Position numbers and translations under genes: made by a program
NCBI GenBank assembly: GCA_015501595.1
Contig: JADNRX010000198.1
Span: 1 to 64,000 of the forward strand
Origin: Hymenopellis radicata
Taxonomy: Eukaryota > Basidiomycota > Agaricomycetes > Agaricales > Physalacriaceae
Reading direction: 5' to 3'
Length of the DNA stretch: 64,000 nucleotides
Part shown: piece by piece, positions 10,630-61,969 of the stretch
How positions within the stretch are numbered: the stretch's first letter is position 1
Layout of the letters: each line of letters starts with the position of its first letter
Notes under the pieces: generated by a model
Databases searched by the model: none
Seen by the model: the letters and a program-made list of their open reading frames with translations, nothing else
What the model was told of the DNA's origin: nothing

Positions 10630-12482
10630 CGCCCCTTCACTTTTCGAAACATCAGCACCAAGTATCACCCTTTCCGCTTATCATACCATTTCTAATCACG
10701 TCTCCAAATGTTAGTCTGTTGTTAATCCAAACTCGCCGAATGCGACTTTTAATGGCCCGCGTAGCTAAATTGTTATCGCGCGCGCCATAGGCGTACTTTT
10801 TCATCCTGAGCCACAGATCGCCCTAGCGCATTATTCTCCGCCAGCGTTCCCTTCCCATTCGTTACATGAGGATCATTTTTTGTGGCAGCAGGGTACACTA
10901 AATTGTTTTGCAAGCAATGATCAAGCTCAGTGGATGCCCACATGGGCAATATTTGCACCCTCCTTTGCTTTGCAGTCGAGGGCCCGGGCACAGTCAGCTT
11001 CCTTACATGAGACACACGTCCGGATATGAGGACTCCCTGGTCCACTGGTCCGTACAGGCAGCGGTATTAAGGGAAGACTTGGTATCCCACTTATCTGAGC
11101 TATCGAAAACCTGTCAAAGATAGGGTGAACAAGCGGAGGCTTGTTCAGGGTCAATGCGCCGATGACGCGCTCGCGTCCTCGTCTCTTTATTCCTTTCATG
11201 GTCTCGTATATATAGACCCTGCGGGCAGTGGCGGACCTTGTCTCTTTGCTCACTGCTCGCAGTTCCCGTAGCATCGTCGCGTACATTTAATTCCCCACCC
11301 GCCTCCTCTAAACATTTTGTACTACTTCTACATTTCATTTCTTACCTACTCCATTACATACCGCAAACATACCGCCGTGGTTAGCTGGGGTTGTCCCCTT
11401 TCGGGCACCCGAGAACCGGTCTTCCCACAATGTCATCTTGTTCCCAATCCCTCAACAGTCCTCTCTCCTGACTAACTCTCCCTCTCCTCTCCTCTCCTTT
11501 CCTCTCCTCTCTTCAGCAGAGACGAGCGCATTGACCCAGATGCCGGAAACATGACAGAAGATGAATTTTCTGCTGGGACTGCAGTAAGTAGTAGGCAGAG
11601 GTGCCACTGCCGTGGTGTTCAAACTAGATGTTGACGGGACAGGTCGGAGAGCTAACACAACGAGTGACGAGTGGCCCATTCCATTTCAGATAGGCGCGCC
11701 GATGCGGGAAGATCCAAAACAGCATGAGACACGGGGAATAGAGTATAGGAAGATGGTGGTTTCTCGAGCCATGCGTCGCGTAAAAGCTGCAGCCCAAATC
11801 TCTTCGGACGGGCCTGCTCCAAAGTGGGTGTCAAAGTCGAGTTCATCTGCCAAGTGTGTCGATTCTGCGTCGGATGTGTCAATCATTCGAACGTCCGTGC
11901 GCATACAAGGTTAGAAGGCCATACATTCAAAAAACGTGAATAAGGCAATGGAGTCTTGACATAGATATCGAACACACACCTGCATTTCCAGCCGAAGAGG
12001 ATTCCTCCTTCTGCCTCTCCTTTCCCTTCCCTTTAAATTAAATTTCTCACCAGATCCAGAAAACAGCACTCAATAGTTGCAAGTAGTCAAGGATGCGCTT
12101 GTTGTTGCTTGTGCTTGCTGCGAGTTTCGAAGCATTTGATGGGCAGCCAGCATTGGCGCGCGCACCTGAGCCTCCCCGGCCGGACACGCAAAAGAATGAG
12201 TAATAGATTCAAGCAACAACGACGCGACGCGAACGTCGTTGGCAGTCAATGAAAAGCCCCGAACTACTATCCACGGCAGCGACAGCACATGAGCCAGAAA
12301 ACATACATGCCTCATGCAATTCGAAATGCGCGAATACTACGATGTTGGCCTCATGAAAAGGCTTAGGAAATGCAGTCGCTTTTAAATGTTACATATGACA
12401 GACGTAGACTATAGGTATCGAGATGGGCGATGAATTGTACACAAGATAAGTAGAACAAGAAAATGCAAACCATGAAAACCAT
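10630..12482. other. junction region between gene A block and arm; no sure gene
   Basis: Similarity to the right outer block ends near 10.68 kb and similarity to the right arm begins near 12.30 kb, so about 1.6 kb here is not shared. An open frame at 11686-11904 (-), with the start MRTDVRMIDTSDAESTHLAD, looks amphipathic but has no partner exon I trust. A C/T-rich run lies at about 11475-11515. The part from 12.30 kb on is the 3' region of YRA1. Confidence 0.45.
11475..11515. repeat. CTCTC-type polypyrimidine microsatellite
   Basis: A run of CTCTCC/CTCTC units with a single strand composed almost wholly of C and T. It is typical of slippage and lies in sequence absent from the right arm. Confidence 0.7.
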
Positions 12483-13793
12483 TTACGAGGCAGGAGTCGC
12501 CGTACTGGCGGTGTAATCCTATACAACAATGAGTTTGGGGTAAAGGGAGGTTGACGACGACAAACCTCCATCTCAGCATCGAGGTCTGCGGCCGTCTTGG
12601 GTGGTCGTTCAGCCTTACGAGGCCTACCACCACGGCCGCGCCTTCCTCCTCCTCGGGGAGCGCCAGTACCCCTTGAACTAGTATAAGCCAAGACGTTCCG
12701 CCGCAACGAACGAGCAACGAACCTCGCGGCTCCATTTTGAGCAGCGCCAGCAGCAGGAGCAACACGGGCAGCAAGGGTCTGGGATGGTTTTGAGGGATCG
12801 ACGACAATCTCGATCTTCATGGGCCGTTCTAGTGATGAAGGAAGAGGAGAAGTTGGGAACTTGTCAGTCCACTGTATACGTCGCGAGAGGTAGAAGCAAG
12901 TAAAAGCGAGGGACGCCGGCAATAGCACCCTCAGTTCGTACCGGAGAATCGTGGCCGTCGTTGTCTCTGCGCTGTGTAAAGGTCGCCACCTTTCTCCCAC
13001 AATCAACACAGCATCGTCGTTGATAGTCCGCCATTTCCCCACTGGACCCACTACTTCGCCTCGTGGCTGTGAGGACACAAGGTTGATCAGACCTTGTGTA
13101 CAGACGCCGGTGGCTGCGAGCCTGCTTCGTCGACAGACAAAACGAGCTGTATGGCTGGCTGACCAGGCCATGGTTCGAGCGGCCTAGGCCGTCGTGCGCG
13201 CAACAGAGACCGCCAGACACCACGATCCTCCTGTAACGGTAGAATAAAGCGGTCGCGGGCAGGGACACGCAAAGAGGTTAAAGGAGGCGATACTAACTGC
13301 CATCGATGAGTCGGTTGTTGTACTGCTGGTATGCCTTGTTTCCGTCTCCCTTTTGTTGGAACTGAACGGCAGCAACGCCCTTGGAGCGACCATTGGCGTC
13401 AAAGTGAAGGGTGAGTTCTCGGACAGGGCCGACGGTGCTGTGGAAGAGCTCCTGTAGGGTAACGTCAGCAAAGAATGAGGCATGAGTGAGAGGCAGTACA
13501 AACCTTGATTTGGGCTTCATTGACGTCGTGGGGAAGATTTGAGACGATGATCTTGTCGGCAGTTGGCTGGGCAGCAGCAGCTGGCTTTGCGAGTGCAGTA
13601 GCTTTGGCAGCCTTGGCTGTGGGACTAGCAATGGCACGGCCGACGATTTGCTGCTTAGCCGTAGGGGTACGGCGACTGCTGCCTCTGCGTATGCCTCGGG
13701 GACGGGAGGTGATGATCTAAGCGGGAAACATTAAGATGGCGGCGCGAGTCCAGGCGGCGAAAGTGAGCCCACTTCGTCAAGAGCCTTGTCCAT
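12483..13793 (-). CDS. yra1: Yra1/ALY/REF-type mRNA export factor (left copy)
   Basis: Exons are 13793-13773, 13716-13504, 13451-13298, 12828-12723, 12677-12566 and 12518-12483 (213 aa). The order is the family order: an N-terminal short motif (MDKALDE), an Arg/Gly/Ser-rich linker, one RRM with RNP2 KIIVSNLPHDV and RNP1 RSKGVAAVQF, GKRPMKIEIVVDP after it, an RGGGRRGRGG box, and a C-terminal DLDAEMEDY motif like the REF C-box. Family members recruit the Mex67 (TAP) receptor to spliced mRNA with the TREX/THO complex in the nucleus. Intron 3 (13297-12829, 469 nt) is some eight times longer than the others. The start is 127 bp from that of RPC31 in a divergent arrangement. An intact inverted copy lies at 59154-60468. 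Confidence 0.92.
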
Positions 13794-13920
13794 GTTGTTG
13801 TGAGTGGCTGCTGTTGGTGGGCGTCGGAAAGAAAGGAAACAACAGCCGCGCTTTCGATCAAACACCCTTACATACGCGCGGAGTCTGAAATTCAAAGTCC
13901 GCCCCTCTACTAAAACCACC
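13794..13920. promoter_or_regulatory. bidirectional promoter of YRA1 and RPC31
   Basis: Only 127 bp separate the two divergent start codons, so both promoters must lie here or reach into the genes. The right-arm counterpart (59027-59153) has the same length and I find a single substitution between them. I see no canonical TATA box. Confidence 0.75.
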
Positions 13921-14746
13921 ATGTCGCGAGGAGGGCGCGGTTTTGGTCGCGGACGCGGCGGGTTTGGCGCCGGCAACATGCCGCCCATGGGCCTAACCCA
14001 TGCCGACATTCAGGCCCTGTCGAGGGACGCCACTGAACTATATCCCGTACGTCCTCGGCGCGTACATTATTATCTACCAATCCTGACTGATATGTAGCCT
14101 ATGCGCCCACCAGTAATGTCCGACTTGACTGATGACGAGCGCAAGATATGTCGATATCAAACTGGATTCGCCGAACGACTGCGACAGTCGCAGTACTTTG
14201 TTGTAGAGACTGTCAAGTCAACAAGTGTGTCGACTTGCATCTCATTTGGATCGAGCTAACTGTGACTCAGAAATCGAGCGATATGTTGACAAATACAATG
14301 TATCTGTATCCGATAGACCCAAACTCAAGCGCAAACAACTACACGAACCTTTCTTTCCAAAGGATATCTTTGAAGACTACTTTAATCCGAAACGAAAGAA
14401 AGGTTAGATATTCATCTCGTTTTTCCTTCCCATTGCTTACGTTCCGCAGTGGCCAAGAAAAAGGTAGTCGCTACCCGCGGTCTCGACCTATCCGATCTCG
14501 AGGAAAACTCTGAAAAGTCAGGCGACGAAGCCTCTGTCGGTGAATCAGCCCAAGGATCAGACTACGATGTCGATGAAGAATACGACAATGACTATGCCGG
14601 CAATTACTTTGACAACGGCGAAGGAGATGACAACGACGACCTCGGTGAAGGAGGAGATGATGGCGGTGGTGGTGGCGGCGGCGGCAAGTGTCCTCTCCCT
14701 TTAACGCGACAAATAACTCACAACGCCCATTGCAGACTGGGACTAA
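13921..14746 (+). CDS. rpc31: RNA polymerase III subunit Rpc31 (RPC7) (left copy)
   Basis: Exons are 13921-14046, 14098-14224, 14271-14402, 14450-14683 and 14736-14746 (209 aa). The protein opens with an RG-rich stretch (MSRGGRGFGRGRGGFG), then a conserved core including YPPMRPPVMS, IERYVDKYNVSVSDRPKL and FPKDIFEDYFNP, then a long acidic tail with DEEYDNDYAGNYFDNGEGDD and a glycine run, ending DWD. This is the Rpc31 subunit of the Pol III initiation subcomplex (with Rpc82 and Rpc34) in the nucleus. The last intron (14684-14735) works only as a GC-AG intron with donor GCAAGT; a GT donor 5 bases on would destroy the conserved Trp-Asp end. The inverted copy at 58201-59026 has the same length. 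In the first exon the differences I checked are synonymous. Confidence 0.9.
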
Positions 14747-15159
14747 TCAAACACAACATCAATTGTATCTTTATCGCATCTTACTGTATCCCTGTGCACA
14801 AGTTGAGATTGAATTCGTGACTTCTGGAAATTGAGTTGAGCTTTCCATCGTCGTGCTGATCCTGCCATTTCGCGTTCAATGTAAACACGGTGTCGACAGG
14901 TCACTGATGTCTATTTGAGCTGCATATAGTGGAGTCTTCAAACGTGACGCAGTGAAGGACGCAATTCACCTACATATCCAGGTGCGTGTCATTTCGGAGA
15001 AAGGCTATCGTCGTGAAGGCGCTTGTCTGGTCTCTGCCTATCGCCATTGCTTCATGACTCGTCTCTGGAGTCAATACAGCTCTGCAGCGGACACAATTTG
15101 TACGCACAGCACGAGATTAAAATACCGAAGCGATGCAAGGACACAACCACTCTATCGCC
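14747..15159. other. intergenic between RPC31 and H2B relic
   Basis: No gene is seen. The stretch is matched by the right arm at about 57800-58200 and contains the 3' region of RPC31 and what was the H2B promoter. Confidence 0.5.
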
Positions 15160-15686
15160 ATGGCCCCCAAACCCGCCTCCACTGCCTCGACCGCCTCCAA
15201 GGCCCCAGCCAAGACTGAGGGATCCAAGCAGCGAAGAAGACTTCCAAGCCAGTAGCAGCTGACGGCGAGAAGAAGAAGCGCAAAAAGTCGAGAAAGGAGA
15301 CTTACTCGTCTAGGGCCCGTTGTTTATTCGACTTGGTTCTTTCTGTTGCTCATTCTGCTTCTAGTCCTCAAGCAGGTCCACCCCGACACTGGTATCTCCA
15401 ACAAGGCGATGGTCGTCAACGATATCTTTGAACGCGTTGCCTCCAGTGCGTCTGCAGTCTTTGGCTTTGGCCTTCCACTCATGTTTCTCGTCTAGAACTC
15501 GCTGCTTATTCGAAAAAATCTACGATTTTATTACGCGATATCTAAACGTCGGTTCGTCTGGTGAGCTCGCCAAGCACGCCATTTCCGAGGGCACCAAATC
15601 GGTGACCAAGGTTCGTTTCCGCTTGCCTGTCATGTCGTTCTTGCCGACTCATGCCCTTACAGTTCTCATCTTCGGGAGCCAAGTGA
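15160..15686 (+). pseudogene. histone H2B relic (left outer)
   Basis: The sequence reads as H2B with the fungal tail: MAPKPASTASTASKAPAK..., [28 protein letters not shown], a [11 protein letters not shown] segment, [17 protein letters not shown] and the closing FSSSGAK. Introns lie at the same places as in the other three relics. A 1-base deletion in the SKAAKKT codons shifts the frame near residue 24, and the conserved Gln codon after RDI is a stop (TAA at about 15544). The exon 2 region is shortened. It cannot make a nucleosomal H2B. Confidence 0.85.
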
Positions 15687-16737
15687 CCTTGCTGTATTAT
15701 TCTTTCTTGCATCTCAGGCCATCAGTGTATTCTTACGATATCTATACATCTCTTGCAGATGACTCGTTCTGTAGCTCGTTGATTATCCTCGTGGCTCGCT
15801 TGATTCTTTCAAAATCCTCGCGGCGTTCAAGATCTACTCGGACGACTCTAACAGCGATCATGTGTCCGCTGATATCCTCGTTCTTGTATGAACATGCTCG
15901 GGAGCCAGATTGGCAGCGCCGACTTTGAGAATTGTCATGTCATGCTTTCGTGCCACCCGTTACAATGACTCTTGACAGATACTTTCCGACTACGGAGATG
16001 AGGATCGGGTGCGTTCTCTGAGTCTCTTACAAAATCTGGCTTCCTCGTTTGCAGCCTGGCAAGTCCTTCGCGATAATCCGAATCTGTCTCGACTCTCGTG
16101 TATCACCACTACGCGCCGCGCTTGTTACGGTTGCGCACGTCCTTAGTGTTTTTCAAGCCGATGTCAAACTCAACGGAGCCGGCGTCCACCCAGTTGTTGA
16201 GCAGGATGCTTTCGTCCCTTGTAAAAGATGTGTGCTCTCGATATCTCGCATATTCGGAGGACGCACGAGTTCGCCATGCACCTGTCAGACAAACAGTCAC
16301 CACGAACTGACAGCGCAGAAGATAGGGTCGGATTTCTGACATCGGATGAATAGTCTTTAATCACTCGCCGTGTGGGGTTTCCGCGCATGGACTCGATGTA
16401 ATGGAGCTCTGGTATCGTCGTCCCTCTTTCCCACCGTTCGATCTCTCAAAGTCCGCTGTCAATAGAAAAATTCAGCTGAACCCGCCATTGCTCTAATACC
16501 GACTGGGCCAAATAACCATGCAGGTCAGCAATTGGATTTCGTATGCGCCGCATGGTCTTCCCGGTGGTTACAGAGCTGTCGACTCAGGCAGACACAGCAC
16601 CTTGGCGGAGATTGACGATTCGGTAGACCTCACCGGACGCTAGTTAAAGACGGAGGAGAAGATGAAGATGATTGTGACAGCGGAAGAGGGAAGCTCTAAA
16701 TTGATGGTGTATTAACTGATAGGTCTTGGTTATACCT
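15687..16737 (+). pseudogene. unidentified relic downstream of H2B (copy 1 of 4)
   Basis: This stretch is repeated after each of the four H2B relics (also 22645-21000, 51880-50240 and 57270-55800 on the other strand). Short readable pieces such as FKIYSDDSNSDHVSADIL, RYNDSW, LLQNLASSFAAWQVL and NPNLSRL recur, often in different frames in different copies, so it was probably a gene whose copies have all decayed. I do not recognise the family. Confidence 0.4.
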
Positions 16738-17355
16738 ATGACAATGGTCGGCTTTGGAGAACTGCGGCAGTCACTGACACTCGAGGTATTTCTCTCCCAT
16801 CCAAGGCTGACTCGATGGAAAGGGGAGAGGCCAGGATTCAACGCGTTTTCGATCAGGACCGTGCTGTGAAAGCGAAAATGTGCATCATTATTCACTGCCT
16901 TCTTGGATATTTCTCATGATAATCACAGTTTACTGCGTGAACTCTGTACCAAACTTGTACATCGTTTCTTCCAGATCACATTCGCGCTGGCGTGAACGCG
17001 AGGCAGCTCCAGCTTCGTGACTAGTGGCGCCGGAGGATGGTTGCTCAATCCTTGAACTCCTCCCTGCCCACGTTGAATACGAGTGGCTTTGGAGAAGGTT
17101 CGTCACAGTCTGCATGCAGGATTAATGTTTACTCATTTAAAATCGTTCTCAAGGATGCTATTATACAGAGGCAGGAGGACTACATGCGAACTACGGCAAC
17201 ATTCCAGAGTACGCCCACACTGGGTTTTTATCGTTCAGCGGTCCCGGAATTCGAAGCTATTGAAGGTCATTTGAGTGGCAATGTTACAGTCGTTTACACT
17301 CAGACCACGTAGCGGAATACAGGATATTCCTACAAGTATCTTCACCCTTAGACAT
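16738..17355 (+). pseudogene. YRS gene relic (left outer)
   Basis: This is a decayed copy of the small gene at 20326-20973. It has the start MTMVGF, a piece matching the LSHPRL region, and GFYRSAVPEFEAIE, but several frame changes lie in between. It runs tail to tail into the F-box gene at 17362-19112. Confidence 0.5.
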
Positions 17356-17361: not shown

Positions 17362-19112
17362 TCAAAGTACGACCCTCTGAAAAACTAAATCAGTATACAG
17401 CGGCACAGCCGAACGGGAAGCAAGCAACTCACTCCATACCGAGAGGCGTATATCCAAGCCCTCTCCTTCAGTTTCCGAAACTCGAGAAAGTCGGCATCCA
17501 CAAGGTCATCGATTGAACAGTCTCTCCCGAGCTCCTCTGGTAGACGTCGTTCATCTTTAATAATGTCATTTTGCCAAGACGAATATCCTTCAATGAAATA
17601 AACAGATCCTTTGGTACGGCCGCCAGGCTGCATATATGTCTCTCTTCCAAGCACAACAATGACTGCATGTAGATTCGTCCCTGTAGACGACTCTTCGGGG
17701 GACTGGTATCGAGCACTCAGGACGCGAATGAGGGTGTCTTTGAGTTCAGCCTCCCAGATTGCCCTGGATATTGTCGTCGTAGTGATTGTCAGAACCCGTA
17801 GATTGGGCACGACGGTCCGGTCCGAAAGAGACTCGATAAGTCTGCCCTTGGGACGCTCTGCTCCAAATGACAGCCTCAGATCTACGATCCCTGGTAACGC
17901 GGAGAGGGGTGTTTCAGGAGAAACAAGTGGCTTTTCGTACTCGTTGAATGTAAGATTTGCAGTCGTGATTGTGCACTCCGAGCGCTGTATAAACCGGTGA
18001 AGAACCTCCCCGTCGGACTGATTCGCACGCGGACAAGGCAAAGATAAACGCGTCAGCGCTGGGCATCGGATATGATCCAACAGCGTTATGGCGAGACTGG
18101 GAGACATGTCGATGAAGGACAATTTGGAGTGGGAAACGACTGCAGGAATATTCGAGGTTTCCTTCACCCGATCATACGGCGACAAATGAGGATCATCCTT
18201 CAACGTTTCCAGGTCGGGGCAGCTAGTGAGAAGTTGCTGGCATAAAACAATATAGTCAAGAGGGACGACGAGCTCCGTTAGCTGCCTCCAAGGGAATTTG
18301 ATACTCGATAGCTTTATGTCGGTGGCAGTGGAGGCTTGCGTAATAGCCAGCGTCAATCGGCGCAGTTGTGGTACGTGTTTACCGAGCGATGAGAGTAGCT
18401 GGTAGTAGGCGTCTAAGTCGTCGGGAAACAAAAATATATCGAGTTCAAGCGCCACTAGTGAAGGCATTCTTCCAATCTTCAAAAATGGTGCGAAATCCTC
18501 GAGAGAGCCTTCAAAAGACGCGTCGTGCCAACTTTCTGCGCTTTTGGCGATGGCACTGATTTGTGTCTTCTTCAGAACGCCCAAGGGGATATGAAACTCG
18601 TTGCGTTTCGCCGACCGCGAAAGCGCCCATTCAAAGAGAACTTTGGTACCGACTTTGTGGTAGCCACCCTTCGTTAGAGTGAATGAGGTCCAAAGACTTG
18701 GGCAGGACCAGGTAACTTGTCTCCACCTGTGGCAGACCTTTCCAAGAAGCCATGGGCCACGACGAGACGAGGCAAATACGTTGTACGGCTTCTCGAATGT
18801 GAGGTGAAAGATCTCTACGAGCACTTCGGTGGGAAGCTGGTGGATGGGAGGAAAGAGCGCAACGTGCGAGTCACGGAAGGCAATCGTTTCGTCTCTCTCC
18901 TTCTTGGCTGTAGACAGAGACGTCTCTAGCTTCTCTATGTTGCAGTCCAAATCCGCTATGTCTGCTTTGGCATCGGCAACTAGATTTACAATGTCGGCTC
19001 TGACTCCATCGTGGGCGGTAAAGGCAATGTTGGTCCCCAAGTGGGTTTCGAATAGAGACTGGGTGGGAATCCTGCGTGGCTTCTTCGTCGGGGAAGGCCG
19101 CAATGGGGGCAT
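17362..19112 (-). CDS. F-box protein with N-terminal coiled coil (left outer)
   Basis: Exon 1 is 19112-17433 and exon 2 is 17376-17362 (about 564 aa). Residues 35-75 form a coiled coil (DIADLDCNIEKLETSL), followed by an F-box (LPTEVLVEIFHLTFEKPYN...WLLGKVCHRWRQVTWSCPSLW) and a leucine-rich C-terminal region. F-box proteins of this layout are substrate adaptors of SCF ubiquitin ligases, and Agaricomycetes carry many. Relative to the copy at 48121 it has lost one base near the start, so the MSHECPHC opening is out of frame and MPPLRP is used. It also has lost one G in a G-run near the end, which changes the last 20 residues. The main body is intact. Partner copies lie at 48121-49902, 53663-55457 and, split by an inversion, 23028-24235 plus 19780-20358. 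Confidence 0.85.
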
Positions 19113-19779: not shown

Positions 19780-20358
19780 TTTTGTTTCTCCCGAAGCGTC
19801 CCTCTCCGCGTTACCAGGGATCGTAGATCTGAGGCTGTCGTTTGGAGCAGAGCCTCTCAAGGGCAGACTCATCGAGTGTCTTTCGGACCGGACCGTCGTG
19901 CCCAATCTACGGGTTCTGATAATCACTACGACGACAATATCCAGGGCAATCTGGGAGGCTGAACTCAAGGACACCCTCATTCGTGTCCTGAGTGCTCGAT
20001 ACCAGTCCCCTGAAGAGTCGTCTACAGGGACGGATATACACGAAGTCGTCGTTGTGCTTGGAAGAGAGACATATATGCAGCCTGGCGGCCCTAACAAGGG
20101 ATCTGTTTATTTCACTGAAGGATATTCGTCTTGGCGAGATGACATTAAAGATGAACGACTTCTATCAGAGGACCTCGGGAGAGACTGTACAATCGAAGAG
20201 CTTGTGGATGCCGACTTTGTTGAGTTTCGGAAACTGAAGGAGAGGGGCTTGGATATACGGCTCTCGATATGGAGTGAGTTGCTTGCTTCCCGTTCGGCTG
20301 TGCCGCTGTATACTGATTTAGTTTTTCAGAGGGTCGTACTTTGCTTAGATATGTCTAA
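19780..20358 (+). pseudogene. 3' half of F-box gene (left inner), displaced by inversion
   Basis: This encodes the C-terminal 170 or so residues of the F-box family (LRLSFGAEPLKGRLIECLS ... ESSTGTDIHEVVVVLGRE ... KLKERGLDIRLSIW), with the terminal GT-AG intron and the last exon ending LRYV. The 5' half is on the other strand at 23028-24235. Confidence 0.85.
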
Positions 20359-20973
20359 GGGTGACATCCGTTGAAGATACTTGTACGATTCCGCTACGTG
20401 GTCTGCATGTAAATCATGCTCCAAAAGGATCCCGCATTCCTTTAGCAGCTTCTGATGTTGACGAGACAAAGCGTTCCGTATCTCAAGTTTACAGCGGCGG
20501 GAAAACTCGTATTGGGACGGCCATCGCAGATCCCGAAGGCTTTGAGTGCATTCATAGAACAGGTTGGAGATGTTGGGCGTCTCCGAGGGGGAAAAAGGGT
20601 ATGATGCCTTCAGCTTCTCGAGCTCTTCATCACTGATAAGGCCCTCGCGCCAATCCTCGGCGTAACCGCCCAGGAAAACGTGTAGGATTTCGCTACGTAG
20701 TCTGAAGACTGAGTGTAAACGAACGTAACCTTGCCATTCAAATGACTTTTCAATAGCTTCGAAATCCAGGACCGTTGAACGATAAAAACCGAGTCCTCGA
20801 ATGGTTCTTCCATGGTGCAATAAATTAAAGAACAACATCGTTGCTTTCACAGCTCCTGAGGCATCGAAAACGCCTGGGCTCTCCCGTACGACATACAGTG
20901 TCCCCTGAGTCAGTCTTAGCAATAAGTCGATTGTCAGTGACTGCCGCAGTTCTTCAACGCCGACCATTGTCAT
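20326..20973 (-). CDS. YRS gene: unidentified 215-aa protein
   Basis: This is the longest of four copies. It starts MTMVGVEELRQSL and contains LLLRLTQGTLYVVRESPG, GFYRSTVLDFEAIEKSFEWQ (the YRS motif I use as a name), HVFLGGYAEDWREGL and a C-terminal end SPLDISKQSTTL. I recognise no domain. The other copies lack about 95 internal residues (see the right copies). Its 3' end overlaps the last exon of the F-box gene by 33 bp, tail to tail. An upstream exon is likely. Confidence 0.5.
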   Translation of the reverse strand: MTMVGVEELRQSLTIDLLLRLTQGTLYVVRESPGVFDASGAVKATMLFFNLLHHGRTIRGLGFYRSTVLDFEAIEKSFEWQGYVRLHSVFRLRSEILHVFLGGYAEDWREGLISDEELEKLKASYPFSPSETPNISNLFYECTQSLRDLRWPSQYEFSRRCKLEIRNALSRQHQKLLKECGILLEHDLHADHVAESYKYLQRMSPLDISKQSTTL

Positions 20974-27255: not shown

Positions 27256-27339
27256 GGAGGGAGGCGGTGCACTTGTTATGAGCATAGAGACTGCTTCACA
27301 TGTCAATGGCCGATCTATTGGTTTCTGGACCACAGAAGT

Positions 27340-28440: not shown

Positions 28441-28475
28441 TCATTTTCTCTGGCTGATGTCCAATACCCCAACGG

Positions 28476-49902: not shown

Positions 49903-50225
49903 GGGTAACATCCATTGAAGATACGTGTAGGATTCCGCTACGTAGTCTGAGTGTAAACGAACGTAACCTTGCCATTCAAATGACTTTTCAATAGCTTCGA
50001 ATTCCACGACCGTTGAACGATAAAAACGGAGTGCTCGAATGGTTCTTTCATGGTGCAATCAATTAAAGAACAACATCGTTGCTTTCACAGCACGGTCCTG
50101 AGGCATCGAAAACGCCCTGAATCCCGGGCTCTCCCGTACGACATACAGTGTCCCCTGCGTCAGCCTTAGCAATATAAGTTGATTGTCAGTGACTGCCGCA
50201 GTTCTTCAATGCCGACCATTGTCAT
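49870..50225 (-). pseudogene. YRS gene copy (right inner), shortened
   Basis: Carries the FYRSTVVEFEAIEKSFEWQ segment joined directly to DYVAESYTYLQWM, so the middle 95 residues of the 20326-20973 copy are missing. Indels near the LRLTQ codons break the upstream frame. Confidence 0.5.
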
Positions 50226-51883: not shown

Positions 51884-52365
51884 TTACTTGGCTCCCGATG
51901 ATGAGAACTGTAACGACATGAGTCGGCAAGATGGACATGACAGGCAAGTGGGAACGAACCTTAGTAACCGATTCGGTGCCCTCGGAAATGGCGAGCTTGG
52001 CGAGCTCACCAGGTAGGATGAGGCGGACAGATGTTTGGATCTCGCGTGATGAAATCGTAGACTTTTTCGAGTAAGCAGCGAGTTCTAGACGAGAAACATG
52101 AGTTAAACGCCAAAGCCAAAGACGGCAGACATACTGGAGGCTTCCGTAGCAACGCGTTCAAAGATATCGTTGACGAAGCTGTTGAGAATAGTCATCGCCT
52201 TGTTGGAGATACCAGTGTCGGGGTGGACCTGCTTGAGGACTAAGAGCAGAATGAGCAACAGAAAGAACAAGTCGAATAGACAACGGACCCTTGTAGATGT
52301 AAGACGAGTAGGTCTCCTTTCTCGACTTTTTGCGCTTCTTCTTCTCGCCGTCAGCTGCTACTGGC
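51884..52365 (-). pseudogene. histone H2B relic (right inner), N-terminus replaced
   Basis: From about [20 protein letters not shown] the H2B sequence is readable through both introns to the FSSSGAK end (stop TAA at 51884-51886). The first 30 codons are missing: instead the sequence joins the 3' end of the small secreted protein gene at about 52366. No ATG is in frame, so it cannot make H2B. Confidence 0.82.
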
Positions 52366-52371
52366 CTGGAA

Positions 52372-52451
52372 TCTTCGCCGAGTCCTGGGACAAGACCGTT
52401 CTCGACGGCTTGTACGCCCAGTGGAAGGTCAACGCCGCCAACTGCTACTAA
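52372..52451 (+). pseudogene. 3' end of small secreted protein gene fused to H2B (right)
   Basis: The last 26 codons (SWDKTVLDGLYAQWKVNAANCY, stop) with no upstream part, joined to H2B exon 1 on the other strand. It is the twin of 19578-19660. Confidence 0.75.
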
Positions 52452-52683
52452 GCACCTAGCACATAGATATGGCTTGGGGGTAGGGGTTTTATCGGGAGAT
52501 GACAAGTGTTGGCCAGAGATTCGTCGGATTCGTCGTCTAGTTTCGTCTATGCCCGGGATAGTAATAGGAAGACATTTGTCCTGTCGAGCGTCCAAGTTTC
52601 AAGTTCGATTTTCAACTGAGCATGAGGATCACAAAGATCTGGCCAATGAGAGCAGTGGAATTGAGGAAATGAAGCTTGAAGCT

Positions 52684-53450
52684 ACTTAACATTAGTCTGT
52701 TTTTTCTTGTCAACTCGGAACCGCAGGTCGCCCGTCCCAATTGGGACACACCAATCACAACCAAAGAACGCGCCTCGCGCCATTAGTGCCTGAAAGTCGT
52801 ATCACCGTAGGGCAGCTGGCCGTAGGGACGGCGAGGAAGGGAGATTTTCGATAGCTATTTCAGAGCGCATAGAGGCTCCAGTGAATGCACGCCGCTGCTT
52901 TCCGGGTGATTTAAACGAGTTTACAGTGGGATCTGCGGGAAGTGTGCTCGGTGTATTTGTGAGATGCCAAGTGATAGGGATGGAAGAGGCGGAAGGAGCT
53001 AAGGGAGACTGAAATGATGAATTCCTGTCATGGTCAAGAATGCGGTCGCTGATGTCGCTTGAGCCTCGAGCAGCATTGACCCGCTCAGATGCAGACTGAT
53101 ATGGTTGTCGTGATGTGGATTGGCGGAGGTTGATGGGATGGCCCATTTAATTTCTTTCATGCAAAGGCGCTATTTTCGCGCTTTGGGAGATGAAGCAGGA
53201 TGTTTAAAATGATTTGGAACAAGTGGTCGCGTTCGTTCTGGTCAGAGCACCGAGTCCCAGCCAAATGCGGACGCGTCTCCATTAAGCCCACCTTCCCAAT
53301 GTGGCCCCGAGATACCCGAAGGTCGACCTACGCCTTCTTGTGCGCGATCAAAATCAGACCATTATATCCAAATTTTTCTCTCATCTCTCTCAAAAAAAAA
53401 ATTTCGGTATATTATTGGTCTGACTTAGACTAGGGAGACTAACTTAACAT
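52684..53450. mobile_element. 749-bp insertion flanked by 9-bp direct repeats
   Basis: ACTTAACAT occurs at 52684-52692 and 53442-53450. The segment between begins TAGTCT and ends AGACTA, a 6-bp inverted terminus. None of the other three equivalent intergenic regions contains it. An open frame on the minus strand (52802-53146, Ser/Pro-rich) has no known domain. The repeats look like a target-site duplication, and 9 bp would suit a Mutator-like element, but the short termini make the class uncertain. Confidence 0.55.
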
Positions 53451-53662
53451 GGAAGTCGTAGTCAATGCCGACGGCAATTTTGGGCACCGCGCGTCACATG
53501 AGCACGTTTTAATTCTGCTCTTTCCTCCACACACCGACGATCACTGACCGCGTCGCCCAGATACGCCCTGCACAAGGATGCTGTAGATCTCAATCTATAT
53601 CTAGTAAGTACGTTCGGTCGCGTGGGCCGCGTCGTATAACTTTTGCGCTCATAGTACTATCC

Positions 53663-55457
53663 ATGACGATGTCCCACGAATGCCCCCACTGCGGTCTTCC
53701 TCCGACGAAGAAGTCACGGATTCCCACCCAGTCTCCATTCGAAACCCACTTGGGGACAAACATTGCCTTTACCGCGCACGGCCATGTTAGAATCGACATC
53801 GTGAATCTGGTTGCCCATGCCAAAGCGGACATAGCGGATTTGGACCGCAGTATAGAGAAGCTAGAGACGTCTCTGTCTACAGCCAAGAAGGAGAGAGACG
53901 AAACGATCGCCTTCCGTGACTCGCACCTTGCGCTCTTTCCTCCCATCCACCAGCTTCCCACCGAAGTGCTCGTAGAGATCTTTCACCTCACATTCGAGAA
54001 GCCGTACAACGTATTCGCTTCGTCGCGTAGCGGTCCATGGCTTCTGGGAAAGGTCTGCCAGAGGTGGAGACAAGTTGCTTGGTCCTGCGCGAGTCTCTGG
54101 ACCTCTTTTACTCTAACGTACAGTAGTCGAGCTGGTGGTTTCCACAAAGTCGGTACCAGCGTTCTCTTTGAAGGGGCACTTTCGCGGTCGGCGAAACGCA
54201 ACAAGTTTCATGTCCCTTGGCCCGTCTGGAGAAGACACAAATCAGCGAGATTGCCAAAAGCGCAGAAAGTTGGCACGACGCGTCTTTTAAAGGCTCTATC
54301 CAGAATTTCGAACCCTTTCTGAAGATTGGCAAAATGCCTTCACTAGCGGCGCTTGAACTCGATATACGTGTGTATCACGACGACTTAGACGCCTACTATC
54401 AGCTACTCTCATCGCTCGGTAAACTTGTACCACAACTGCGCCGATTGACGCTGGCCATTACGCAAGCCTCCTCTCCCATCGACATAAAGCTATGGAAGAT
54501 CAAATTCCTTGGAGGCAGCTAACGGAGCTCGTCGTTCCTCTCGACTCCGTCGTTTTATGCCAGCAACTTCTCACTTGCTGCCCTGACCTGGCAACGTTGA
54601 AGGATTACCCTCTTTTGTCGAACTATGATCGGGTGAAGCACACCTCAAATATTCCTGGGCTTCAGGCAGTTGTCTCCCATTCCAAATTGTCCTTCATCGA
54701 CATGTCTCCCAGTTTCGCAATAACGCTGTTGGATCATATCCGATGCCCAGCGCTGACGCGTTTATCACTGCCCTGCGCGCGTGCGAATCAGTCCGACGGG
54801 GAAGTTCTCCAACGATTCACACAGCGCTCGGAGTGTACAATCACGACTGCAAATCTTACATTCAACGCATACAAAAAGTCACTTGTTTCTCCTGAAACAT
54901 CCCTCTCCGCCTTATCAGGGATCATAGATCTGAAGCTGTCGTTCGGAGCAGAGCCTCTCAAGGGCAGATTCATTGATTGTCTTTCAGACCGAACCGTCGT
55001 GCCCAATCTGCGGGTTCTGACAATCACTACGACGACAATATCCAGGACAATCTGGGAGGCTGAGCTCAAGGACACCCTCATTCGTGTCCTGAGTGCTCGA
55101 TACCAGTCCCCCGAAGAGTCGTCTACAGGGACGGATATACAGGAAGTCGTCGTTGTGCTGGGAAGAGAGACATATATGATGCCTGGCGGCCGCACCACTG
55201 GATCTGTTTATTACATTGAAGGATATTCATCCTGGCGAAGTGTATCAGAAGAAGACAAACGACGTCTACGCGAGGAGTATGGCAAAGACTGTACAATCGA
55301 AGACTTCGTGGATGCCGACTTTGTTGAGTTTCGGAAACTGAAGGAGAGGGGCTTGGATATACGCCTCTCGGTATGGAGTGAGTTGCTTTCCGTTCGGCTG
55401 TGCCGCTGTATACTGATTTAGTCTTCAGAGGGTCGTACTTTGATTCGATATGTCTAA
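53663..55457 (+). pseudogene. F-box gene (right outer) with two frame breaks
   Basis: The family opening MSHECPHCGLPPTKKSRIP, the coiled coil and the F-box are intact up to about 54215. One base is lost in a C-run there, and a second in another C-run at about 54508, so three frames are needed to read the protein. The terminal exon (ends 55455-55457) is normal. The other outer copy, at 17362-19112, is nearly intact. Both breaks are single bases in homopolymers, so sequencing error is a possible cause. Confidence 0.8.
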
Positions 55458-55787
55458 TGGTGACATCCATTGAAGATACGTGTAGGATTCGGCTACGTAG
55501 TCTGGGTGTAAACGAACGTAACCTTGCCATTCAAATGACTTTTCAATAGCTTCGAAATCCAGGACCGTTGAACGATAAAAACCGAGTCCTCGAGTGGTTC
55601 TTCCATGGTGCAATAAATTAAAGAACAACATCGTTGCTTTCACAGCCCGGTCCTGAGGCATCGAAAACGCCTTGAATCCCGGGCTCTCCCGTACGACGTA
55701 CAGTGTTCCTTTAGACAGCCTTGGATGGGAGAGCAATAACTCGATGGTCAGTGACTGCAGCAGTTCTTCAAAGCCGACCGTTGTCAT
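55425..55787 (-). CDS. YRS gene (right outer), short form, 120 aa
   Basis: Starts MTTVGFEELLQSL, then LLLSHPRLSKGTLYVVRE, GFYRSTVLDFEAIEKSFEWQ and DYVAESYTYLQWMSPLDI. It is open throughout but lacks the 95-residue middle of the 20326-20973 form. The missing part is bounded by a repeated TACGTAGTCTG-like motif. It overlaps the F-box terminal exon by 33 bp. Function unknown. Confidence 0.45.
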   Translation of the reverse strand: MTTVGFEELLQSLTIELLLSHPRLSKGTLYVVRESPGFKAFSMPQDRAVKATMLFFNLLHHGRTTRGLGFYRSTVLDFEAIEKSFEWQGYVRLHPDYVAESYTYLQWMSPLDISNQSTTL

Positions 55788-57275
55788 AGGTACAACCAAG
55801 AACTATCAGTCAGTACACCATTAATTTAGAGCTTCCCCTTCATGATGCGCTACAGTCCTCCTTCCGCTGTCACAATCATCTTTATCTTCTCCATCTGTAA
55901 CTGGCAGCATCCCATGAGGCCTACCCACTCGTCAATCTCTGTCAATATGTTGTCTGCATGAGTAGTCGAACGCGCTCTGTGCCTACAGAACCCACCGAGA
56001 AGACCATGTGGCGCATGCGGACTCCGTGTGCTGTTCTAACGAACTTGAGCGAGACATGCCGCATTTACAGAAAAGATGCGAAAGAGAGGCGAAAGGTGTG
56101 AGCCTGCAACACCAGTCGGTATTCGCGCAATGGTGGGGTCGACAGTGTGGAAGCAATGAAACGCTAGCGCCATTCAAGGAACATAAACACATTAGACGAT
56201 ATATTACTACCCTTGTGGTCATGTCATTCACCAAGTGTAGATGAGAACTACGTCGGTCCAGAAGATCAAGTTTTGTTCGTCCCTCATACGGGTAGAGAAT
56301 CGGCGGGACCAGCATTAGTAGAGCGGAAAATAAAAACTAGTAGTAGCCCCTCGTGGCGGTCCAGCAGAAGCCGGTTTGTCAGTCGGATTCACGCGCTGAA
56401 TTCTCTCAGATCCACCATTGACGGGGCGGACTCGCAGATTAGACACTCTTTCTGGTGAGAAAGAGGCCTCCAACCTCAAACTACATCAACTCCTGGTAGA
56501 CCCATCCGAAAACCCCACGCGGAGAGTGATTAAAGACTATCCATCCGATGTCAGAAATCCGACCCTATCTTCTGCGCTGTCAGTTCGTGGTGACTGGTGC
56601 ATGGCGAACTCGTGCGCCTTCCGAATATGCGATATCGAGAGCACACATGTTTTTACAAGGGACGAAAGCATCCTGCTCAACAACTTTGTGGACGCCGCTC
56701 CGGCTTGAAAAGCACTAAACGACCGTAATAAGCGCGTCGCGTAGTGATGTTATGTGATTCATTGTCGACAACCGGTCGCCTGAGTGTGACCAAATGCTCT
56801 GAAAGAGCTCCACATGGGGGCGTCAGAGCTCCGGGACTGAAGGAATCAGAACGCTTTAGCGAGGCAGATTCGGATTATCGCGAAGGACTTGCCAGACTGC
56901 AAACGATGAGAGGAAGGAAGCCAGATTTTGTAAGAGACTCAGAGAACGCACCCGATTTTTGCGTAGTCGGAAAGTATCTACGCTATACGTCCAAGAGTCA
57001 TTGTAACGGGTGGCACAAAAGCATGACATGACAGTTCTGAAAGTCGGCGCTGCCAACCTGGCTCCAGAGCATGTTCATACAAGAACGAGGATATCAGGGG
57101 ACACAGGATCGTTGCAGCTGCGACTGTCACTGTCGTTGAAGTTCGAGTCGATCTTGAACGGCACGAGGATAATCAACGAGCGTCCAAACGAGGCTAGAAC
57201 GAGTCATCGTATAGATATCGTAAAAATACATGGCCCGAGAATGGAATGAGATGCAAGAAGAATAATACAGCAAGC
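55788..57275 (-). pseudogene. unidentified relic region (right outer)
   Basis: Counterpart of 15687-16737. Pieces such as SCFCATRYNDSWTYSVDTF and LLQNLASFLSSFAVWQVLRD are readable at 56856-57056, but the frames do not connect. Confidence 0.4.
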
Positions 57276-57793
57276 TCACTTGGCTCCCGATGATGAGAAC
57301 TGTAAGGGCATGAGTCGGGAAGATAGACATGGCAGGCAAGCGGAAACGAACCTTGGTCACCGATTTGGTGCCCTCGGAAATGGCGAGCTCACCAGGTAAG
57401 ATGAGACGGACCGACGTTTGGATATCGCGTGATGAAATCGTAGATTGTTTCGAGTAAGCAGCGAGAAACATGAGTCGAAGGCCAAAGCCAAAGACTGGAG
57501 GCTTCTGTAGCAACACGTTCAAAGATAGCTGTTGAGAATGGCCATCGCCTTGTTGGAGATACCAGTGTCGAGGTGGACCTGCTTGAGGACAAAAGGCAGA
57601 ATGAGCAACAGAAAGAATAGACAACGGACCGTTGTAGATGTAAGACGAGTAAGTCTCCTTTGCGCTTCTTCTTCTCGCCGTCAGCTGCTACTGGCTTGGA
57701 TGTCTTCTTGGCTGCCTTGGATCCCTCAGTCTTGGCTGGCGGTCGAGGCAGGCGCTTTGCCAGCAGTGGAGGCGGGTTTTGGGGCCAGTGGTT
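57276..57793 (-). pseudogene. histone H2B relic (right outer)
   Basis: Clear H2B sequence with three faults: a 10-bp deletion removes the A of the start codon, an 11-bp deletion removes part of KKSRK, and 9 bp coding KHA after GELA are gone. The [18 protein letters not shown] segment and FSSSGAK end remain. It is the mirror of 15160-15686, and the two have different faults. Confidence 0.85.
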
Positions 57794-58200
57794 GTGTCCT
57801 TGCATCGCTTCGATATTTTAATCTCGCGCTGTGCGTAGAAATTGTGTCCGCTATAGAAAAGCTGCATTGACTCCAGAGACGAGTCATGAAGCAATGACGA
57901 TAGGGAGAGACCAGACAAGCGCCCAAGACGTCGCACCCGATAGCCTTTCTCCGAAATGATGGCACGCATCTGGATATGTAGGCGAATTGCGTCCTTCACT
58001 GCGTCACGTTTGTAGATTCCACTATATGCAGCTCAAATAGACATCAGTGACCTGTCGACACCGTGTTTACATTGAACGCGAAATAGCAGGATCAGCGCAA
58101 CGATGGAAAGCTCAACTTTATTTCCAGAAGTAGTCTCAACTTGTGAGGATGCACAGGGATACAGTGATATGCGATAAAGATACAGTCATGTTACTTTTGA
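57794..58200. other. intergenic between H2B relic and RPC31
   Basis: Mirror of 14747-15159. No gene is seen. Confidence 0.5.
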
Positions 58201-59026
58201 TTAGTCCCAGTCTGTAAAGGACGGTGTGAGTTATCTGTCGCGTTAAAGGGAGAGGACACTTGCCGCCGCCGCCGCCACCACCGCCATCATCTCCTCCTTC
58301 ACCGAGGTCGTCATTGTCATCTCCTTCGCCGTTGTCAAAGTAATTGCCGGCGTAGTCATTGTCGTATTCTTCGTCGACATCGTAGTCTGATCCTTGGGCT
58401 GATTCGCCGACAGAGGCTTCGTCGCCTGACTTTTCAGAGTTTTCCTCGAGATCGGATAGGTCGAGACCGCGGGTAGCGACTACCTTTTTCTTGGCCACTG
58501 CGGAAGGTAAGGAATGGAAAGGCAAAACGAGATGAATATCCAACCTTTTTTTCGTTTCGGATTAAAGTAGTCTTCAAAGATATCCTTTGGAAAGAACGGT
58601 TCGTGTAGTTGTTTGCGCTTGAGTTTGGGTCTATCAGATACAGATACATTGTATTTGTCAACATATCGCTCAATTTCTGAGTCACAGTTAGCTCGATCCG
58701 AATGCGATACAAGTTGACGCACTTATTGACTTGACAGTTTCTACAACAAAGTACTGCGACTGTCGCAGTCGTTCGGCGAATCCAGTTTGATATCGACATA
58801 TCTTGCGCTCATCATCAGTCAAGTCGGACATTACTGGTGGGCGCATAGGCTGCATATCAGTCAGGATTGGCAGATAATAATGTACGCGCCGAGGACGTAC
58901 GGGATATAGCTCAGTGGCGTCCCTCGACAGGGCCTGAATGTCGGCATGGGTTAGGCCCATGGGTGGCATGTTGCCGGCGCCAAACCCGCCGCGTCCGCGG
59001 CCAAAACCGCGCCCTCCTCGCGACAT
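58201..59026 (-). CDS. rpc31: RNA polymerase III subunit Rpc31 (RPC7) (right copy)
   Basis: Same exon structure and total length (826 bp) as the left copy, including the GC-AG last intron that yields the DWD end. Signature parts are MSRGGRGFGRG, FPKDIFEDYFNP and the acidic GEGDDNDDLGEGG tail. In the first exon I found only silent changes relative to the left copy. Both copies appear functional. Confidence 0.9.
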
Positions 59027-59153
59027 GGTGGTTTTAGTAGAGGGGCGGACTTTGAATTTCAGACTCCGCGCGTATGTAAGGGTGTTTGATCGAAAGCGCG
59101 GCTGTTGTTTCCTTTCTTTCCGACGCCCACCAACAGCAGCCACTCACAGCAAC
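59027..59153. promoter_or_regulatory. bidirectional promoter of RPC31 and YRA1 (right copy)
   Basis: Mirror of 13794-13920, 127 bp, with one substitution found between the copies. Confidence 0.75.
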
Positions 59154-60468
59154 ATGGACAAGGCTCTTGACGAAGTGGGCTCACTTTCGCCGCCTGGACT
59201 CGCGCCGCCATCTTAATGTTTCCCGCTTAGATCATCACCTCCCGTCCCCGAGGCATACGCAGAGGCAGCAGTCGCCGTACCCCTACGGCTAAGCAGCAAA
59301 TCGTCGGCCGTGCCATTGCTAGTCCCACAGCCAAGGCTGCCAAAGCTACTGCACTCGCAAAGCCAGCTGCTGCTGCCCAGCCAACTGCCGACAAGATCAT
59401 CGTCTCAAATCTTCCCCACGACGTCAATGAAGCCCAAATCAAGGTTTGTACTGCCTCTCACTCATGCCTCTTTCTTTGCTGACGTCGCCCTACAGGAGCT
59501 CTTTCACAGCACCGTCGGCCCTGTCCGAGAACTCACCCTTCACTTTGACGCCAATGGTCGCTCCAAAGGCGTTGCTGCTGTTCAGTTCCAACAAAAGGGA
59601 GACGGAAACAAGGCATACCAGCAGTACAACAACCGACTCATCGATGGCAGTTAGTATCGCCTCCTTTAACCTCTTTGCGTGTCCCTGCCCCGCGACCGCT
59701 TTATTCTACCGTTACAGGAGGATCGTGGTGTCTGGCGGTCTCTGTTGCGCGCACGACGGCCTAGGCTGCTCGAACCATGGCCTGGTCAGCCAGCCATACA
59801 GCTCGTTTTGTCTGTCGACGAATCAGGCTCGCAGCCACCGGCGTCTGTACACAAGGTCTGATCAACCTTGTGTCCTCACAGCCACGAGGCGAAGTAGTGG
59901 GTCCAGTGGGGAAATGGCGGACTACCAACGACGATGCTGTGTTGATTGTGGGAGAAAGGTGGCGACCTTTACACAGCGCAGAGACAACGACGGCCACGAT
60001 TCTCCGGTACGAACATGAGGGTGCCTATTGCCGGCGTCCCTCGCTTTTACTTGCTTCTACCTCTCGCGACGTATACAGTGGACTGACAAGTTCCCAACTT
60101 CTCCTCTTCCCTTCATCACTAGAACGGCCCATGAAGATCGAGATTGTCGTCGATCCCTCAAAACCATCCCAGACCCTCGCTGCCCGTGTTGCTCCTGCTG
60201 CTGGCGCTGCTCAAAATGGAGCCGCGAGGTTCGTTGCTCGTTCGTTGCGGAGGAACGTCTTGGCTTATACTAGTTCAAGGGGTACTGGCGCTCCCCGAGG
60301 AGGAGGAAGGCGCGGCCGTGGTGGTAGGCCTCGTAAGGCTGAACGACCACCCAAGACGGCCGCAGACCTCGATGCTGAGATGGAGGTTTGTCGTCGTCAA
60401 CCTCCATTTACCCCAAACTCATTGTTGTATAGGATTACACCGCCAGTACGGCGACTCCCGCCTCGTAA
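59154..60468 (+). CDS. yra1: Yra1/ALY/REF-type mRNA export factor (right copy)
   Basis: Exons are 59154-59174, 59231-59443, 59496-59649, 60123-60228, 60274-60385 and 60433-60468 (213 aa). It has the same motif order as the left copy: MDKALDE, KIIVSNLPHDV and RSKGVAAVQF of the RRM, RPMKIEIVVDP, the RGGGRRGRGG box and DLDAEMEDY. The long third intron is 473 nt here and 469 nt on the left. Open frames inside that intron are not exons of this gene. Confidence 0.92.
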
Positions 60469-61969
60469 ATGGTTTTCATGGTTTGCATTTTCTTGTTCTA
60501 CTTATCTTGTGTACAATTCATCGCCCATCTCGATACCTATAGTCTACGTCTGTCATATGTAACATTTAAAAGCGACTGCAGTTCCTAAGCCTTTTCATGA
60601 GGCCAACATCGTAGTATTCGCGCATTTCGAATTGCATGAGGCATGTATGTTTTCTGGGTACGGAAGTAACATCATGATGATCATCATGTTACCGCTCAGT
60701 GCTCAGTGCTCAGCCTCAGCCTCAGCCTCACTGGCACCAGTGCTTCCGCAAGTCGAACCCTGAAATCGACTCGACTCGACTCGACTCGATGCCATTAGTA
60801 GTCTCCCGCAGTCAGCCTTGTCTAAAGCCGCAAGCAAGTTCCGTTTATAGTAGTCTGATTTAGGTCGCGCCTGTCATGTAGGTGATGGACCTTCGTCCCA
60901 ATTAGGAAGAACCAAAAAGGAAATTCGCTTTGGGAACGGTGCTGCACAGCCACCAGAGCTTCGTCTGCAACTGCCATCGATGTCGTGTAGTCGTATATAT
61001 GCGAAAATGTCTTTTACCCTCGAGCGAATGTTGAATCTACTTCAATAGAAACACCAGATCTCACTTTTGGGTTGACAAACACGCAAACCGCCTCTATCAC
61101 TCCATCTGTCAGCGAATTGGCTGATGTCTTCGGTTCTTCATCATCGTCGTCGTCGCAGCTCATACAGACATCCTTCAAGTCTATCCTTAACCTCGACTAG
61201 AGTAGGAAAAGTAATATCGCGCGTAAATTGTATGAGGCTACGCTAAATAACGTGTCCATTTTGGATGGCACGTGACGACACGTGTTCCCGGCAAACACCG
61301 AATACCCATCTCCTACATCGGGGTAGCCACTAAAAACAGACTATGCCATTAGCGGAGCTTCAATGCTATGTCCTTCTCACTACGACTTTGTACCACGTAG
61401 TTTACCACAAGTAAAGCTGTTCTTGATGTTTTCTTCAACTTTAGCTTGTTTCTTGAATGGTCGCGTCCTATCACTGGCTCTCAGGCAGATTGTAAACATG
61501 TACAGGCCAGCAATGGTAGGCAACGCGAAATGACAACGGATACTTCTCGAACGCTGGAACTACAGCTCTTCTGGTCAGCGTTTGGAATGCTCACCTTGAA
61601 TTCATTTTGGAGTTGCTACCAGGTTGCTCCAGTGGTATAGACCGTGTCATACTATGAATCTTCTAACTATGCCGATCTTACCATTGCAAGGGACGCGAAG
61701 GCCTTTTCACCTATTTACTGTATATTCAACAATGATTTAATGTACTGTGTAGCTACTGTTCTGCCTTGAATACTCTATGTCCTCTGATCATCCATAACCT
61801 GCCTTGTTCTTGCGTTGCGGCGCCGCAATGCCGACCTGCCATTATATAGTGCAATGGAAAATGTTACGGGCGGAAAGAGAATAGAAAGAAAGCCTATGGA
61901 GCCAAAGGATAGGTGATACTATTAGTATTTGTGCTGATGCTTCGAAAAGTGACGCGGCCAGGTTGAGCG
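60469..61969. other. outer flank of right arm, no sure gene
   Basis: The first 190 bp are the YRA1 3' region shared with the left arm. From 60659 to about 61905 the sequence has no counterpart on the left. It contains a 16-bp palindrome at 60673-60688 and two short tandem repeats (GCTCAGT/CAGCCT units near 60695-60730 and GACTC units at 60766-60790). No gene is supported. Confidence 0.5.
60673..60790. repeat. palindrome and short tandem repeats at arm boundary
   Basis: CATGATGATCATCATG at 60673-60688 is a perfect 16-bp palindrome. It is followed by GCTCAGT and CAGCCT units and then by (GACTC)n at 60766-60790. The cluster begins 14 bp outside the last base shared with the left arm. Confidence 0.8.

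Follow-up and report, generated by a model that had tools for sequence, protein, structure and literature searches.

Gene content and arrangement of the locus

We analysed a window of 64,000 bases from the basidiomycete Hymenopellis radicata, comprising bases 1–64,000 of contig C516 (103,720 bases) in a genome assembly of 75.49 Mb and 1,405 contigs. The locus contains an ALYREF/Yra1-like mRNA export gene, an RPC31-like gene, a tannase/feruloyl esterase gene, a further gene (gene A) and an array of F-box genes and units termed X, arranged as two mirrored arms around a spacer (table 1). Pfam scans covered 34 single open reading frames out of 172 of at least 90 codons, and genes made of short exons may have escaped them.

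Self-BLAST of the contig, including DNA beyond the window, confirmed the large mirrored arrangement that a first-pass annotation had described and showed that it continues past the window. The arms, given there as 15 kb, are approximately 27 kb long. From the outside inwards, bases 1–1,428 mirror 71,782–70,388 (95.0%), 2,130–2,530 mirror 70,386–69,977 (92.6%), 3,295–4,820 mirror 69,976–68,446 (89.5%), 4,818–6,641 mirror 68,207–66,408 (95.2%), 6,672–8,900 mirror 66,142–63,913 (96.0%) and 12,294–16,091 mirror 60,657–56,860 (91.5%, E = 0); further mirrored blocks, with insertions, carry on inward to 27,253 and 45,142. These BLAST identities count gaps and are thus lower than the substitution-only values given below. 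Gene A, which the annotation had placed in mirror image outside its shorter arms, is 92.9% identical to its counterpart. Contig base 1 is paired with 71,782 inside a stretch of 98.5–99.2% identity, and within the arms 10,662–12,293 and 60,658–61,927 cannot be aligned to each other. In the sequence, two long arms that are homologous to each other thus run in opposite orientations, as in a large inverted repeat, around an unmirrored spacer whose annotated length of 17.9 kb was borne out. The mirrored gene order is also real, but the inner-arm match in the array at 15.2–25 kb is in part family resemblance, with units of the same kind on other contigs.

Table 1. Features of the mirrored locus in C516 coordinates (the window ends at 64,000).
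Feature	Position	Strand	Remarks
Left arm	1–27,253	+	Mirrored at 45,142–71,782; begins at contig base 1; self-BLAST
Tannase/feruloyl esterase gene, left copy	6,754–8,474	-	PF07519
Gene A	8,898–10,661	+	Mirrored at 61,928–63,680; two open frames scanned without Pfam match
ALYREF/Yra1-like mRNA export gene, left copy	12,392–13,800	-	RRM and FoP domains (PF00076, PF13865); homologues
RPC31-like gene, left copy	14,136–15,215	+	PF11705, E = 4e-5, 24.1 bits against a cut-off of 30.2: weak, below cut-off
X unit 1, left	15,236–16,881	+	187-aa open frame without Pfam match
F-box-like gene LF1	17,388–19,112	-	575-aa open frame; PF12937, E = 1.4e-4, 22.0 bits against a cut-off of 24.3
Inverted segment of left arm (3.25 kb)	19,782–23,027	.	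Collinear, not mirrored, with right 49,330–52,260; holds X unit 2 and C-terminal LF2 piece
F-box gene LF2, N-terminal part	23,028–24,175	-	In two frames; separated by the inversion from the C-terminal piece at 19,781–20,311; tblastn
Left-arm copy of membrane-protein-type gene	26,390–27,253	-	Cut at 27,253; lacks the upstream exons; lower end approximate
Unmirrored spacer (17,888 bases)	27,254–45,141	.	No inverted self-match (self-BLAST); tannase fragment, repeat-family stretches, ArgJ in two pieces
F-box-like gene (by eye), in spacer	42,832–43,671		Without Pfam match
Membrane-protein-type gene (by eye)	44,803–45,997	+	Crosses spacer/right-arm boundary within an exon; 44,803 is not a determined start; read in three frames
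Right arm, part within the window	45,142–64,000	-	Extends 7.8 kb beyond the window, to contig base 71,782; self-BLAST
F-box-like gene RF48	48,118–49,857	+	580-aa open frame; uninverted partner of LF2
X unit 2, right	50,085–52,370	-	95.8% identical to the inverted left X unit 2
F-box copy RF53	53,666–55,397	+	Three frames: pseudogene, introns or consensus errors; tblastn
X unit 1, right	55,640–57,700	-	Self-BLAST
ALYREF/Yra1-like gene, right copy	59,151–60,559	+	Coordinates approximate, by mirror mapping
Palindromic MITE-like insertion, right arm only	63,681–63,912	.	AGT target duplication as read; uninterrupted site in left arm
MITE-like element, right arm only	68,208–68,445		25-base inverted repeats; TA target duplication as read; uninterrupted left-arm site

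Junctions between arms and spacer

Homology stops sharply at both inner arm edges. At the right edge, a gene with hydrophobic stretches runs from exons in the spacer through an exon spanning 45,141/45,142 into right-arm exons. The left arm has the matching downstream exons, broken off in the crossing exon at 27,253, with unrelated spacer DNA beyond. The open frames scanned at this gene yielded no Pfam match. Because the gene is unbroken at the right and cut in the same exon at the left, the sequence makes it likely that the right junction keeps the ancestral order and that the left is a breakpoint. The left junction may mark where an inversion in one nucleus or an inverted copy ends, or it may be a false join; support for the right junction comes from the unbroken gene, and for the left only from the assembly. 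A join at telomeres was rejected, as no double TTAGGG, CCCTAA or TTAGGGG occurs anywhere in C516.

Within the spacer, a tannase fragment (28,001–28,670, 69% identical to the arm copy) lies just inside the left edge. A gene for ArgJ occupies 39,979–42,508 in two pieces approximately 1.2 kb apart, the gap including a stretch (40,707–41,714) matched on many contigs. As the gap sits at a possible intron position, the gene could still be functional. C660 has a second ArgJ (455 residues in public data), which shares 79% with the spacer copy; among the matches listed, an Armillaria protein is closer to the spacer copy (82%). No ArgJ of M. mucida was present among 120 listed of 2,091 homologues, which is uninformative on inward synteny.

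Copy number and constraint of the arm genes

Searches of the assembly placed ALYREF and RPC31-like DNA at two positions, both on C516 (all 10 candidates scored); the remaining eight rows covered X-unit DNA (window base 15,142 onwards) or a single stretch of 127 bases. A 400-base probe for gene A also identified two places, both on C516 (4/4 candidates scored). ALYREF with the RPC31-like gene, and part of gene A, are thus present twice each, the copy number of an allelic haplotype pair. The tannase gene, with its right copy at approximately 64.3–66.0 kb of C516, has a third copy on C640, where 45,443–54,539 corresponds to a rearranged version of the tannase region and of C516 bases 76.8–80.0 kb.

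Between the arms, the ALYREF exons differ by five synonymous and no nonsynonymous changes in 195 codons, and the tannase by 30 synonymous and 12 nonsynonymous changes in 538. From these counts ALYREF and tannase look constrained on both arms, the RPC31-like gene and gene A less clearly so. ALYREF has a predicted intron of approximately 470 bases after the RRM exons (12,832–13,296), with 462 of 465 bases the same in both arms. Yeast YRA1 likewise has a long regulatory intron.

M. mucida encodes an ALYREF orthologue (78% identity; one row among 120 listed of 547 homologues) and four close F-box paralogues on contigs of 597,724 bases, most likely one and the same. This suggests that ALYREF already lay next to an F-box array before the two genera diverged.

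Divergence between the arms

Gap-free identity between the arms is mostly 92–99% outside the F-box array and mostly 77–94% in the F-box and first X units. In 500-base bins counting substitutions only, it is 96–99% at 1–9 kb, 94–97% at 9–10.6 kb, 98–99% at 12.3–14 kb, 96% and 92% at 14–15 kb and 82–94% at 15–19.3 kb. In 250-base bins, X unit 2 shows 90–99% (mean 95.8%), the F-box stretch at 23.0–24.5 kb 81–89%, and 24.5–27.25 kb 92–98% with a final bin of 88%; X unit 1, once realigned, gives 77–89%. A smooth gradient of divergence away from a selected core is suggested by the outer arm but fails further in, where the ALYREF block, long intron included, is again 98–99% identical. One-arm insertions of 232–764 bases also separate the arms. 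The inversion between the copies that the first-pass annotation had proposed is real and, with the MITE-like insertions present on one side only, supports its view that the two copies have separate histories.

These differences bear on two other explanations. A palindrome made from a single molecule in sequencing or assembly, by a missed adapter or a fold-back read, would account for mirror order within one contig. Fold-back reads, however, have near-identical arms and no such spacer, whereas here bins differ by 1–23% in substitutions (mostly 1–6% in the arm flanks), and the insertions, the 3.25-kb inversion and 17.9 kb of unmirrored middle would all have to be explained; we therefore rejected this origin, which is very improbable. 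Diverged cores with more conserved flanks also resemble the edges of idiomorphs, as in a mating-type locus with two such forms. However, none of the 23 exon matches to the STE3 receptor family in the genome and none of the three Homeobox_KN matches falls on C516, leaving a mating-type locus scarcely credible.

The F-box and X-unit array

The label ‘F-box-like’ is given by homology, because PF12937 is among the precomputed domains of the homologue P0003; LF1 itself does not reach the curated cut-off of that family. Read inward, the right arm has the order X-F-X-F. The left has the same order, but with the inversion splitting the second F-box gene. Because the right order retains a 580-residue frame, the left order is likely to be derived, judging from the two arrangements. 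Four long-query genome searches scored 39/98, 28/30, 38/42 and 27/28 candidates, with the query's own place and the known mirror not listed; the third of these found the F-box unit in many copies and located F-box and X units also on C868, C299, C219, C885 and at 87–103 kb of C516. On C868, 13,171–17,930 and 21,544–26,853 form a direct repeat of approximately 5 kb (96–98%) with an F-box unit inside, which may be a recent tandem duplication or two haplotypes in series.

We compared 12 F-box units; several nodes of the tree are poorly supported, and relationships were read partly from plain identity. For the N-terminal parts, LF1 pairs with RF53 (89.5%), RF53 is nearer to a C868 unit by plain identity (90.9%) and RF48 is nearest to C868 units (91.6%). 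For the C-terminal parts, LF2 is nearest to LF1 (93.3%), RF48 to LF2 (92.4%) and RF53 to C299 (93.4%). LF2 and RF48, which occupy matching places, share 85.4% in the N-terminal and 92.4% in the C-terminal part. F-box genes at matching places in the arms are therefore only 85–92% alike, with halves that are differently related, while beside the gene with 85% and 92% halves X unit 2 is 95.8% identical and the adjoining inner flank 95–98%. Since ectopic conversion or unequal exchange gives mixed ancestry within genes of this kind, the array is likely to evolve by gain and loss of units, local inversion and ectopic gene conversion. As for the gene conversion proposed earlier between the arms, mixed ancestry of the F-box genes is indicated, but with array units at large and not from arm to arm alone. 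Comparison of the two intact copies LF1 and RF48 gave a dN/dS of 0.37 (dS 0.32), which shows constraint and not overall positive selection. Diverged F-box genes at matching places make the array the firmest biology of the locus. Search listings of the literature on fungal F-box clusters returned nothing that we judged specific.

Origin of the two arms

We consider that the odds are tilted, if only slightly, towards the arms being two nuclear haplotypes of one ALYREF-RPC31-F-box locus in a dikaryon, which differ by a breakpoint and are joined through the spacer; the location of the arms in different nuclei is something that we infer. The assembler would have left one haplotype by way of the 18-kb spacer and returned along the other. 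The spacer would be inverted in one nucleus, with one breakpoint within the exon of the membrane-protein-type gene, so that at this exon the arm would meet the left end of the spacer in the inverted nucleus and its right end in the other. A phase switch within the collapsed spacer is the predicted cause of the head-to-head contig. Such a join of two haplotypes had been raised in the first-pass annotation and fits somewhat best, on copy number, purifying selection and contig pairs elsewhere. A careless misjoin at the right junction is unlikely because the gene runs unbroken across it; the join therefore calls for either a genuine breakpoint that separates the haplotypes or a genuine duplication.

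Haplotypes fit because ALYREF, the RPC31-like gene and gene A each occur twice, once in either arm, because ALYREF and tannase show few protein changes, as alleles would, and because collinear haplotype-like contig pairs exist elsewhere in the genome. In two of the four contig pairs compared, C539/C81 (63 mismatches in 3,787 columns, 1.7%) and C655/C674 (88 mismatches in 3,100 columns, 2.8%), collinearity extends across almost all of the fetched sequence, and these pairs look like retained haplotypes. Their mismatch rates compare with mostly 1–6% substitutions in the arm flanks; the F-box and X1 units exceed this. Of 151 candidates in a search for AAA proteins, 19 matches were scored and gave one equal-score pair (C494/C858), paired by score and not by alignment. 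For the most part the assembly is thus collapsed or haploid, with a minority of loci that look doubled.

Published data provide some context. PMC8480192 gives GenBank JADNRX000000000 for H. radicata strain IJFM A160 and describes the genomes of its set as derived from Illumina and PacBio data with Velvet, AllPathsLG or Falcon. For mated monokaryons of O. raphanipes, PMC9961838 gives an average nucleotide identity (ANI) of 98.15% and assemblies of 60.2 and 54.9 Mb, and for a dikaryotic strain, MG139, called H. radicata, a heterozygosity of 4.23%. Two H. radicata strains compared in the same source share only 85.8% ANI, so these figures are those of relatives and not of the present genome.

Several observations weigh against two haplotypes. 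Probes of 400 bases from either spacer end matched C516 only (4/4 candidates scored), although further junctions would be expected somewhere after an inversion. A duplication with one edge in the membrane-protein-type gene would leave exactly this pairing of a whole gene and a truncated copy. Identity between the arms does not fall smoothly inward. The RPC31-like gene (nine synonymous and 11 nonsynonymous changes in 125 codons) and gene A (13 and 23 in 286, with one stop change and gaps) are weakly constrained, and the right tannase copy has gaps of four bases and one base; these lie within the tested stretches and may reflect introns, errors in the consensus or damage. There are extra copies around the locus, on C640, C299 and C868: the third tannase copy is 90–95% identical, a third copy of the inner-arm edge on C299 is 94–99% identical to both arms over 900 bases, and X unit 1 shares 86.8% between the arms compared with 88.5% and 91.1% to a C868 unit, which is odd for simple alleles. 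The contig pairs C471/C473 (99.1% over 2,209 bases) and C571/C539 (84–94% in pieces) do not look haplotype-like, and no pattern of doubling is seen among the eight chaperonin loci found.

Beyond those 900 bases, C299 is 100% identical to the right arm and 77–88% to the left over approximately 220 bases. As a candidate plain allele of the right arm, its F-box parts reach 85.3% and 88.3%. On C299 (7,439–11,911) the copy of the inner-arm edge is joined to other DNA, and the match on C516 starts at 46,834.

A real inverted segmental duplication of approximately 27 kb or more on one chromosome is nearly as likely, a serious contender that falls a little short of an even chance. The right arm would be the source and the left the copy, its inner edge in an exon. 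The arms would since have diverged through inversion, the insertion of MITE-like elements and exchanges involving other F-box units. The arms lie in a single contig with sharp boundaries, and the gene that is whole at one junction and cut at the other, the spacer ends unique to C516, the direct repeat within one contig on C868 and the third copies of inner-edge and tannase segments on C299 and C640 all speak for it. However, ALYREF, the RPC31-like gene and gene A have no third copy from a second nucleus, though collapse is possible; the compared exons of ALYREF encode the same protein in both arms, although a redundant copy might be expected to decay; and divergence of the arm flanks is near that of the haplotype-like pairs. 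The near-identical outer end at contig base 1, together with the lack of a near-identical second copy of C516 bases 74,001–84,000 among the matches (best 92%, on C640; 27/28 candidates scored), fits the haplotype reading, resembling a point at which two branches merge. A near-identical contig end is predicted by haplotypes and duplication alike, and so is not decisive.

A more elaborate form of the duplication is improbable. In it, both ALYREF copies of a real inverted repeat of approximately 27 kb or more would be functional, flipping of the spacer, a possibility also raised in the first-pass annotation, would switch the membrane-protein-type gene between whole and cut, and the arms would act as a cassette store rewriting F-box genes piecewise from related units elsewhere, so that nuclei carry diverged F-box repertoires much like plant S-loci.

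The mirror is thus confirmed and longer than first noted, with two haplotypes somewhat more likely than a true palindrome. Should the arms prove to be haplotypes, it would be wrong to read the contig as a palindrome, and its two ALYREF and extra F-box genes would inflate gene counts. It would also offer, ready-made, two haplotypes of an F-box cluster that changes fast and has a structural breakpoint inside a gene, so that one could test whether this polymorphism is balanced. If the arms are real, they represent a large inverted repeat with a potentially flipping spacer in a fungus. The reshuffling of its F-box genes and the breakpoint inside a gene make the locus moderately interesting.

Comparison with known systems

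Two versions of a locus kept apart at a few per cent divergence are familiar from haplotypes retained in dikaryon assemblies (PMC9961838; compare Laccaria trichodermophora, PMC10995626). Here, by contrast, a single contig contains both versions, placed head to head with one unmirrored spacer between them. Large inverted arms with single-copy DNA between them are also seen in inverted low-copy repeats such as those of human chromosome 22 (compare PMC13103302). In the present locus, nothing shows that the spacer occurs in both orientations or that the arms share one chromosome. The S-locus F-box (SLF) array of plants consists of clustered F-box genes with haplotypes. A point of difference is the dN/dS of 0.37, which signals constraint here, and the likeness is one of arrangement, not of shown kinship or a recognition role: as in the SLF array, linked and diverged F-box genes, apparently of mixed ancestry, are accompanied by more conserved flanks.

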